DNA of 57,840 bases, taken from the NCBI GenBank assembly GCA_016785955.1, contig JAEUWH010000088.1, positions 1 through 57,840 on the forward strand. Direction: 5' to 3'. The position numbers were made by a program, and so were the translations under genes. How positions within the stretch are numbered: the first letter of the stretch is position 1; every line of letters begins with the position of its first letter. Source of the stretch: Pseudobdellovibrionaceae bacterium (GTDB taxonomy: Bacteria > Bdellovibrionota > Bdellovibrionia > Bdellovibrionales > Bdellovibrionaceae). Below are positions 1,385 through 10,108 of the stretch, one piece after another. The notes beneath the pieces are model-generated. The model searched no databases and had not been told where the DNA came from. It worked only from the letters and a program-made list of their open reading frames with translations.

Positions 1385-2767
1385 TTATTGTGGGGGCTGG
1401 CACGCCCAGCGCACTTCATTCGTGGCGCAATGCAGATTACCACCAAAAGAATCATAGGATTGAGTATCCGTAGGTACCGCTTTGATACTGATTGCCTCTA
1501 GCTGCTCAGCTATTTTAAACTCTAGTGCTTGTGACAAAACACTACCCGTCTCTATACTCATTCGAGGCTTTGAATAGAAATAGACAGTCCCTGCACTTAA
1601 GCCATTGATCGGATTGAACGAGACCAATTGTTTATTCCATCGCAAAAGCTCACCAGCAGATGCCGGCAACTTGACTACTTTTGGTGTACACGCTGACGAA
1701 TTGCCGCGCGCCTTCTTAATCCATGCGATCAATGTGCGATTCATCATTTCTATATCGTCTTCTTGTGCTGTAAAAAGATCGTAGAACGACGGGTGTAATG
1801 AAACCGATGCCTTTTTTAAAAACGTAAGCAACAGTTTAGGTGATGCCTGCAAAATCGTAAACGAACACTCAGACGCTGAGGGTGCATCGTTCGGTACAAC
1901 ATTAAATATTTCATCGATATGACCAAAATGTGCCGGTAAATTTAACTCAAGAACTGTTTGAAATTGATTAAAATAATTCAGTATGCCTCTGGACGCCCCA
2001 TCCGAGTTAGAACGACCCACCACCAATAGATCGAAAGGCAATGGCAGGAAATTTCCGCCCATTGAATAAGTTTCTGATGTCGTATTATTTTCCTTCTCAC
2101 TCCAAATCGCATCAAACTCAGCGCGTAGTTCAGCTGGGGTACCATACGCATCTAGAGTTTTCTCGGCCTTATGAACTAACGATTGAAAATCTGTTTTCGA
2201 TATATAGGAATGTTGCGAAGGTGAAAACTGACATACTTTCGAAATGTACTTAAACAGTGTTGTGTTCGAAGAATCCAATTGTGAATTTATATAGGGCATA
2301 TGAATAAACGTCGGCACTCCAGATTCAGAACCGAACACACCCAAATCTCTAGCAAACGTTGGCGCATCACTGCTGCTGATTTTATTCTTACGTTTTGCCG
2401 GAATAAGGTTTACGTTACCTCCTAATGCCATCACTTGATCAACAAACTGTTCTGTCATCCCCCCATCGTCAACAACAAGATTGATTTTCACATCGGGAGT
2501 TTCCCTCACGATCGACTTTACACTATTTAGACATCCATCCCTGTAGGCTCGACATCCGATAAAAACACCTGCTAGCGGCAATGAACTGGGCATAAGTTTA
2601 ATTCCCGATGAATTCCCTCCACACGAAGGCAGCTGGAACCGTTCCAAATCTTTTTTTGAGACACAATCAATAGATCTATTCAGCCAACACGAGAATCCAT
2701 CAGGTTCACACTCAATTCCATACAGTGCCAGTTTTTGCGCCAAAGGTGTCGCATTTTTAGCATGCAA
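1385..2767 (-). CDS. Protein-arginine deiminase (PAD) homologue
   Basis: A 460-residue protein whose C-terminal ~380 residues carry the signatures of the PAD catalytic domain (PF03068, peptidyl-arginine to citrulline). Visible candidates for the catalytic tetrad are Asp141 in FARDLGVF (cf. WMQDEME of human PAD4), His283 and Asp285 in FGHIDEIFNVVP (cf. GHVDEF), and Cys447 in GGNLHCATN (cf. VHCGTNVRR). FTILQASPKLLL also matches the PAD segment LLLASPRS. The paired Arg that bind substrate in PAD4 (after the first Asp motif) are not obvious here. The N-terminal ~60 residues are Cys-rich (C20, C27, C35, C49), suggesting an exported, disulfide-bearing protein, yet no signal peptide is seen. The start used is a TTG; the frame is open only 16 codons further up without an ATG, so the true N-terminus is uncertain. 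It lies 151 bp downstream of eno and is probably transcribed separately. Confidence 0.83.
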   Translation of the reverse strand: MHAKNATPLAQKLALYGIECEPDGFSCWLNRSIDCVSKKDLERFQLPSCGGNSSGIKLMPSSLPLAGVFIGCRAYRDGCLNSVKSIVRETPDVKINLVVDDGGMTEQFVDQVMALGGNVNLIPAKRKNKISSSDAPTFARDLGVFGSESGVPTFIHMPYINSQLDSSNTTLFKYISKVCQFSPSQHSYISKTDFQSLVHKAEKTLDAYGTPAELRAEFDAIWSEKENNTTSETYSMGGNFLPLPFDLLVVGRSNSDGASRGILNYFNQFQTVLELNLPAHFGHIDEIFNVVPNDAPSASECSFTILQASPKLLLTFLKKASVSLHPSFYDLFTAQEDDIEMMNRTLIAWIKKARGNSSACTPKVVKLPASAGELLRWNKQLVSFNPINGLSAGTVYFYSKPRMSIETGSVLSQALEFKIAEQLEAISIKAVPTDTQSYDSFGGNLHCATNEVRWACQPPQ

Positions 2768-8115: not shown

Positions 8116-8195
8116 TCAACCCTTTTTGTTTCCTAATTAATCTGAAAAATGCAAAACTAATTTGAATGAAAAGTTCATTTAAATTGGAGGAAAAT

Positions 8196-8984
8196 TTGAA
8201 AATTAACTTAAATAAAACAATGAAACTTGTTTTGCTTGGCAGCGCGTTCGCACTTGTTCAATGTGCTCCCTCGGCTAAACAACTTAAAGAGGCCGTAGAA
8301 AAAGATCCGTCGATCGTGTTTGTCGCGATTGAAAAAGATCCCGAGAAATTTATTGAAGTCGTAAACAAAGCGGCGCAAGAAGCGCAGAAAAAGCAGCAAG
8401 AGAAAATGGCGGACGACGAGAAAAAACAAAGGGAAACAGAGTACGCCAATCCTCTTAAGCCTGAAATCGATGAATCCCGCGTGATTTTCGGCAAAAAAGA
8501 TGCTCCAGTCACTATCGTTGAATATTCAGATTTCGAGTGCCCATACTGCTCTCGCGGTTATCAAGTCATCAAACAAGTCAAAGCAGAATACGGCGACAAG
8601 GTCCGCGTTCTTTTCAAACATCTTCCTTTGGATTTCCACCCAATGGCAGAACCAGCGGCTCGTTACTATGAAGCCATTGCAATGCAAGATCATGGCAAAG
8701 CTGAAAAATTTCATGACAAAGTTTTTGAAAACCAAGGTGAGTTGAAATCTGGCAAAGAAAATTTCTTGAAAAAAGCAGCTAAAGACGTTGGTGCAAACAT
8801 GGCGACTTTAGAAAAAGATCTTAAAAACGAAAAGGTCTCTGCTCGCATCCAAAAAGATATGGAAGAGGCACAAAGTTTTGGTATTCGTGGTACTCCTGGA
8901 TTTATCGTTAACGGTATTTCACTCCGAGGCGCGCTGCCATTCAGCGAATTCAAAGAAGTTATCGACAAACATTTGAAAAAATAG
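8196..8984 (+). CDS. DsbA-like thiol-disulfide oxidoreductase lipoprotein
   Basis: About 263 residues. The TTG at 8196 is the likely start: GGAGG (8186-8190) lies 5 bases upstream, and from it the protein has a lipoprotein signal (KLVLLGSAFALVQC, lipobox LVQC with Cys23). A Lys/Glu/Gln-rich helical spacer (~60 residues) leads to a thioredoxin-fold domain (Thioredoxin_4/DsbA) with redox motif C115-P-Y-C118 in SDFECPYCSRG and the cis-Pro loop in GIRGTPGFIVNG. It is probably lipid-anchored in the envelope, where it makes or isomerises disulfides. An ATG 8 codons further in (MKLVLLG) is a less well-placed alternative. A hairpin terminator follows. Confidence 0.9.
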   Translation: MKINLNKTMKLVLLGSAFALVQCAPSAKQLKEAVEKDPSIVFVAIEKDPEKFIEVVNKAAQEAQKKQQEKMADDEKKQRETEYANPLKPEIDESRVIFGKKDAPVTIVEYSDFECPYCSRGYQVIKQVKAEYGDKVRVLFKHLPLDFHPMAEPAARYYEAIAMQDHGKAEKFHDKVFENQGELKSGKENFLKKAAKDVGANMATLEKDLKNEKVSARIQKDMEEAQSFGIRGTPGFIVNGISLRGALPFSEFKEVIDKHLKK

Positions 8985-9008
8985 TTCCCGTCGTACAGAT
9001 TTATGTTT

Positions 9009-9041
9009 AAAAACCCGCAATGAAAATTGCGGTTTTTTTTT
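9009..9041 (+). terminator. Rho-independent terminator after the DsbA-like gene
   Basis: ACCCGCAAT is followed by a short GAAA-type loop, then ATTGCGGT and a run of T (9033-9041). The stem is interrupted by a single bulged C. Confidence 0.85.
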
Positions 9042-9071
9042 ACTCAGCATCTAACTTACTCAGCATCTAAC
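9040..9071. repeat. 16-bp perfect tandem duplication
   Basis: TTACTCAGCATCTAAC occurs twice back to back, starting in the terminator T-tract and ending before the stop of the convergent outer-membrane protein gene. It is probably a simple slippage duplication. Confidence 0.9.
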
Positions 9072-9097
9072 ATCGGACAAATAACATCTGACAAATA

Positions 9098-10108
9098 TCA
9101 GTAATTGATTTGTGAAGAATACAAAACTCCAATTTCATCACGATCTACAAACGTATCCTTAAACACACGATAGAACGGGCCAACACCCCAATCGAAATTT
9201 TTTTCCGAACGACAAAAACCTAACGACCACGCCAGCTCACTTTGATTGGCTTGCTGCCAACGACTCAGTCCCGTTGAAATTCGTCCCCATGAACCAACAT
9301 ATTCGAAACCACCTTTCAGCCGATGCGTTCCAGCGAAATAGTAAGTGTCCGATATCGAATAGGTAAATCCTTTCGTGCCAAACTTAACCCCCAGATCCAA
9401 TTCCCAGTTGTGCTTCAAATCAAATCCTTGATTCAACTCTTGGCGTATCATTTGGTTTTGCATCAAGGACCAAGCCCGCGTTTTCACTTTGCCTTCATCA
9501 CTGATTAACAACTTCGGCGTTTTTAAATGAGTCCCCAGGATGAATGACTCTGACTCCATCAAAAAGCCAAACCCCACCTGTGCTGAAATAAATTCTTTTT
9601 GCGTGTCTATGAATTTTACGGGCGTGTCCATGTTAGCCGCATTCATCAATGTTTCGGCCTTACTTTGTTGATCATTATTGAATGTCAAACCCCACCCCAC
9701 ATTCCACATGGGGGAAAGCTTTAAACCAACTCCTAAATGTAACTCGATACCACGCAGCTCTTCGACACTTTCCAAAGTATCAGACTGCAATTTAATTTTT
9801 TCGACATTGTTTTTCAGCACCATTCCCCAGCCACCCCAACTTTGCCCTAAGCCGGAAGACAAAACGCGCGGTTCAATCGCAATCGGAGCCCGATCGGCTT
9901 TGTATTCCGCCTGATTCGGTCGATAAGAAAAACGATTCAACGCATTCAGTGACCCCGAAAAACTCATCCCTTGATGAAAAGAACCAAAATTTGCGGGGAA
10001 CTCGGTAATGTCCCCTGGAGAGGTAATGTCACTATAGTTAAAATAGTGCTCAGTCGCATACGAAGTGGAAACAATCAGCAAAATAAAACCCAAAGCTTTT
10101 CTTACCAT
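9098..10108 (-). CDS. Outer-membrane beta-barrel protein
   Basis: A 336-residue protein with a signal peptide (ALGFILLIVSTSYA) and a body of alternating aromatic/polar strands (VGLKLSPMWNVGWGLTF; FTYSISDTYYFAGTHRLKGG). It ends in ...SSQINY; a terminal aromatic residue is typical of BAM-inserted barrels. The overall pattern resembles the FadL/OMPP1 transporter superfamily, but no signature is decisive. The start overlaps the end of the SfsA gene by 7 bases, so the two are translationally coupled. Confidence 0.8.
   Translation of the reverse strand: MVRKALGFILLIVSTSYATEHYFNYSDITSPGDITEFPANFGSFHQGMSFSGSLNALNRFSYRPNQAEYKADRAPIAIEPRVLSSGLGQSWGGWGMVLKNNVEKIKLQSDTLESVEELRGIELHLGVGLKLSPMWNVGWGLTFNNDQQSKAETLMNAANMDTPVKFIDTQKEFISAQVGFGFLMESESFILGTHLKTPKLLISDEGKVKTRAWSLMQNQMIRQELNQGFDLKHNWELDLGVKFGTKGFTYSISDTYYFAGTHRLKGGFEYVGSWGRISTGLSRWQQANQSELAWSLGFCRSEKNFDWGVGPFYRVFKDTFVDRDEIGVLYSSQINY

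Follow-up and report, generated by a model that had tools for sequence, protein, structure and literature searches.

Can a protein-arginine deiminase (PAD) work once the residues that hold its catalytic calcium have gone? This question is raised by a gene within a 57,840-nucleotide stretch of DNA from a Pseudobdellovibrionaceae bacterium (contig JAEUWH010000088.1, positions 1 to 57,840, called the window here), which a first-pass annotation had read as a PAD homologue in a predator-like genome. That description of the genome is fair, as the phylum is Bdellovibrionota, and the interval proposed for the gene, 1385-2767, is borne out, with the coding strand being the minus strand (Table 1); the plus strand, read in the same frame over this interval, is crowded with stops. 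Dependence on calcium restrains animal PADs, and PAD enzymes are regarded as strictly calcium-requiring. The unusual feature of the window protein, which was missed in the first pass, is that it retains the catalytic set whilst having lost the calcium site Ca1.

Table 1. Position and basis of the features discussed in the text
Feature	Coordinates	Strand	Description	Basis
PAD-family (PF03068-type) deiminase gene	1385..2767	minus	460 codons, TTG start, stop at 1385-1387	ORF, profile, fold match
First 27 residues	2687..2767	minus	Where the sisters have a signal peptide; no hydrophobic core	Sister alignment, crude hydropathy
F138-A-R140-D141-L-G-V144	2336..2356	minus	Catalytic Asp D141 (PAD4 D350); R140 and V144 at Q349 and E353	Alignments
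G237-G-N-F-L241	2045..2059	minus	L241 at Ca1 ligand E411 of PAD4	Alignments
G282-H283-I-D285-E286	1910..1924	minus	Catalytic His and second Asp (PAD4 H471, D473)	Aligned with PAD1 GHVDE
G443-N-L-H-C447	1427..1441	minus	Nucleophile Cys (PAD4 C645)	Aligned with PAD1 GEIHC

Membership of the PAD family

Searched singly, the window protein scores 14.4 bits against PF03068 in Pfam (E 0.019; cut-off 25 bits), finds no PAD among the sequences of the PDB and has no match in NCBIfam. Its two sisters come from other Bdellovibrionota: L034 is 32% identical over its best-matching stretch (E 1e-27) and L035 36% (E 8e-26). L034 scores 30.6 bits against PF03068 by itself, above the cut-off. A scan of one genome per species with the patterns used returned solely these two, L034/L035 reappearing there as L062 (Bacteriovoracaceae) and L061 (Bdellovibrionaceae). 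A profile built from the three proteins matched human PAD1 at E=2.7e-10 and PAD3/PAD4 at 3-4e-7, pairing GHIDE with GHVDE and GNLHCAT with GEIHCGT of PAD1, and a profile of 37 relatives reached PAD4 at about 1e-30. When the window trio was compared profile to profile with Bdellovibrionota PADs of the Ca1 type, the match extended over 386 columns at E=6e-45, a likeness to PADs well past chance, which rules out a chance reading frame.

The fold tells the same story. An AF2 model computed from the three sequences has an overall pLDDT of 48.6 (36.7 from the window sequence alone) and is confident only at about residues 240-430; nonetheless, the best solved matches of this partial model are PADs, with Z scores of 17.4 for PAD2 and 16.5 for PAD4 over 212-236 residues, followed by 2ewo. 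The model is unreliable at D141, R140 and C447, and R140 is placed by alignment. With sister-group profile, family profile and fold search all upholding the homology first proposed, membership of the PAD fold is close to certain.

Two other deiminase families were considered and set aside. Membership of PF04371 (agmatine deiminase and P. gingivalis PPAD) is not supported: when the profiles are compared, no more than 24-41 columns align, around the Cys, and the window protein has no match to PF04371 at E up to 10. A free arginine deiminase (PF02274) was rejected, there being no match in the source genome. This genome does hold two more members of the superfamily: a second PAD, L001 (G000:C61), in which NHVDE replaces GHVDE and whose start resembles a signal peptide, and a PF04371-type deiminase, L119 (G000:C54), with the motifs WIRD, GHVD and HC. 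Elsewhere, the agmatine-deiminase-like L116 (G012:C6) has Ser for the catalytic Cys (GGAFHSITQ) and RLRD for WLRD, and is possibly inactive.

Catalytic residues and the Ca1 site

The catalytic set named in the first pass, D141, H283, D285 and C447, is placed exactly: alignments put these residues at PAD4 D350/H471/D473/C645, within the motifs FARD, GHIDE and GGNLHC, and the four positions rank among the most conserved columns when the window protein is aligned with 65 other Bdellovibrionota PADs. All are retained in the window protein and in both sisters. The "LLLASP-like strand" also described there corresponds to ILQASP (residues 305-310), which the sister profile pairs with the corresponding strand in human PAD1.

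The calcium site is another matter. PAD4 holds its catalytic-site calcium, Ca1, by Q349, E353 and E411, and the triple mutant Q349A/E353A/E411A is left with about 0.1% of its efficiency (PMC5445078), so that loss of these ligands matters; a comparison of PADI homologues (PMC8826395), moreover, reported Ca1 to be conserved in all of them. The three positions read R140/V144/L241 in the window protein, and R/L/M and R/F/L in its sisters; the partner of E353 shifts with the placement of a two-residue gap, and neither alignment puts an acidic residue or Gln there. The window protein and its sisters form one clade (99-100% SH-aLRT support), and the Ca1 ligands are lost throughout it.

How does this compare with the wider family? 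Amongst 69 sequences, comprising 68 Bdellovibrionota proteins and one Streptomyces PAD, the Ca1-type triad (Q349, E/Q/D at 353 and E/D at 411) is found in 56, and position 349 or 353 is basic in nine. On the best tree these nine require six changes, of which supported branches force four or more. Other parts of the Bdellovibrionota PAD family have repeatedly lost Ca1 ligands and acquired a basic residue. Position 411 is non-acidic in 7/9 of the sequences with a basic 349/353, against 4/60 of the others (Fisher p 1e-5, with kinship ignored); a kinship-aware pair test of R/K349 against residue 411, on the first 49 sequences, was not significant, with too few independent pairs.

An arginine beside the catalytic Asp is familiar from other deiminases. 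It immediately precedes this Asp in all ten PF04371-type deiminases counted (W-x-R-D in nine, R-L-R-D in one), which were not preselected for W-x-R-D, and the FARDL of the window protein closely resembles the FVRDL of a PF02274-type protein. Agmatine deiminase, PPAD and arginine deiminase are not known to need calcium. Our inference is that R140 substitutes for the calcium ion. We hold it to be somewhat likelier than even that the window protein is a PAD whose catalytic calcium has been replaced by arginine, which would render it calcium-independent, with extracytoplasmic citrullination its likely role. C447 would attack the guanidinium carbon, following the standard mechanism of the superfamily, with H283 as acid/base and with D141 and D285 holding the guanidinium. 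The side chain of R140 would stand where animal PADs have the Ca1 ion that orders their active site, and V144 and L241 would present hydrophobic residues at the former ligand positions; with such an arrangement, the enzyme should work without calcium. Its likely activity would be the conversion of peptide or protein arginine to citrulline, outside the cytoplasm. For the window copy itself, activity, calcium independence, substrate and site of action are all inferences. Extending the proposal to the lineage - that one PAD lineage of predatory bacteria swapped its catalytic calcium for an Asp-adjacent arginine and so became naturally calcium-independent, with swaps of this kind having occurred several times in the phylum - is more tentative, and we would place it a little short of an even chance. 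One observation stands against replacement of the ion: in L101 and L102, PADs on two contigs of the genome G120, Arg at 349 (with K at 353) coexists with an acidic 411. Both also carry NRGR, which resembles the substrate-binding SPRNRG segment of PAD4. They represent another rearrangement of the Ca1 site, one that retains the Arg pair.

Could these proteins simply be dead? A catalytically inactive relative, retained for a binding or structural role, has its precedent in mammalian PAD6, which is calcium-free and inactive (PMC11067741). Removal of the Ca1 ligands costs PAD4 99.9% of its efficiency (PMC5445078), and the aromatic partner W347 of PAD4 has changed too, to F138 in the window protein. 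However, PAD6 has lost the catalytic Cys, whereas the window clade retains D141, H283, D285 and C447. Of the 13 sequences sampled whose Ca1 site is broken, 12 in fact keep the catalytic residues, and the lost ligand has become Arg in all three members of the clade rather than random residues. The sole sequence to have lost catalytic residues, L042 (G242:C51; ORF 853-2373, minus), has GMVNE and GGIQSTSS where the catalytic His/Asp and Cys would stand, yet still has the Q349 and E353 equivalents; it is probably a dead PAD paralogue. We regard a dead window protein as unlikely.

We are equally doubtful that the window protein is an active deiminase of the PAD fold that acts on small guanidino compounds (free, agmatine-like or C-terminal arginine) instead of internal protein arginine. 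The substrate-binding Arg pair of PAD4 (R372/R374) had already been described as not evident, and we agree: the interval S147-K174 of the window protein contains no Arg or Lys. This absence suits a small substrate, as does a FARD motif like that of small-molecule deiminases. By profile, however, the family sides with PADs, not with PF04371, and most of it looks exported, where small-molecule arginine metabolism would be less expected.

Export, relatives and genomic setting

Sister-profile matches occur in 65/369 Bdellovibrionota genomes, and 13 of 60 relatives match PF03068 with an E value of 0.001 or below. Crude hydropathy scoring gives about 57/69 sequences a hydrophobic N-terminal segment, and several non-catalytic Cys are nearly invariant, which makes export and disulfide bonding probable for most members. 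Within this mostly exported, Cys-rich family, the window protein is divergent. Its N-terminus had been called Cys-rich and suggestive of export; the cysteines are real (C20, C27, C35 and C49), and the alignment with 65 other Bdellovibrionota PADs shows C35, C49, C301, C360 and C456 to be conserved family-wide. Export fares less evenly, being supported for the family and for both sisters, which have a signal peptide, but not for the window copy, in which crude hydropathy recognised no signal peptide, even in a three-frame look upstream. Searches of viral contigs found no relatives, and plasmids yielded none to the window protein, although four records of actinobacterial plasmids gave matches to one other member of the family. 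One other Bdellovibrionota genome carries two PAD genes in tandem, about 2 kb apart (L008 and L016, G056:C26).

Is the window copy, then, a functional gene of its genome? Its neighbours are an enolase gene on the same strand and, on the other side, a convergently oriented gene for an FKBP-type isomerase; their counterparts in congeners are 84-90% and 61-87% identical, respectively. These close matches rule out a misbinned contig; the contig is not foreign. No relative of the window protein was detectable by sequence in five congeners, and no gene of this type adjoins enolase in the five enolase regions inspected, which makes the window gene accessory. The regions around the three sister genes showed no conserved neighbours. 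The sister PAD in L062 has beside it, at 8119-9264, a protein that is predicted to be secreted and carries a HELGH motif like that of metallopeptidases, and genes for an IS21-type transposase and integrase-like proteins lie near.

The absence from congeners, at the enolase locus and beyond, would suit a recently acquired or decaying copy without function in the source genome. Pointing towards decay, too, are a codon bias weaker than that of neighbouring long genes (z 3.4 vs about 7-13), the long branch of the window protein in the family tree and the missing signal peptide, along with the TTG start. Yet the reading frame is open from end to end, and the eight Cys besides C447 that the window protein has in common with its sisters are all retained, as are the Cys nearly invariant in the family. 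Furthermore, conserved family positions are kept on a par with the sisters (18/20 and 23/30 for the window protein; 18 and 24 for the sisters), which argues against decay, and of the alternatives we consider this one the least probable.

Significance and comparison with known systems

If arginine has indeed replaced the calcium, natural changes at exactly the three ligands whose loss cripples PAD4, in a PAD with every catalytic residue kept, would show how a calcium switch can be bypassed. They would also bear on whether the superfamily, in which the other members work without calcium, gained this switch or lost it. Beyond the window copy, our results point to a sizeable family of predicted exported deiminases in predatory bacteria, on which our literature search found no paper.

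How does the window protein sit amongst known deiminases? The animal, cyanobacterial, actinobacterial and fungal PADs (PADI, PF03068) have the same fold and the same catalytic Asp/His/Asp/Cys, along with the GHxDE and G-x-x-HC motifs. Unlike these enzymes, it is without the Ca1 ligands (R140/V144/L241), the Trp of W347 and an evident peptide-binding Arg pair, and it has extra conserved Cys. Its direct relatives are the exported Bdellovibrionota PADs, with which it has the Cys pattern in common; most of these keep Q349, E/Q353, E411 and a hydrophobic N-terminus, whereas the window clade has dispensed with the ligands. The PF04371 deiminases offer a parallel in the Arg that precedes the catalytic Asp and a fold likeness at the level of the superfamily (2ewo), but form an otherwise separate family by profile comparison. 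Mammalian PAD6, finally, is a PAD fold stripped of its calcium ligands, as is the window clade; the one is inactive, its catalytic Cys lost, and the other has that Cys still in place.
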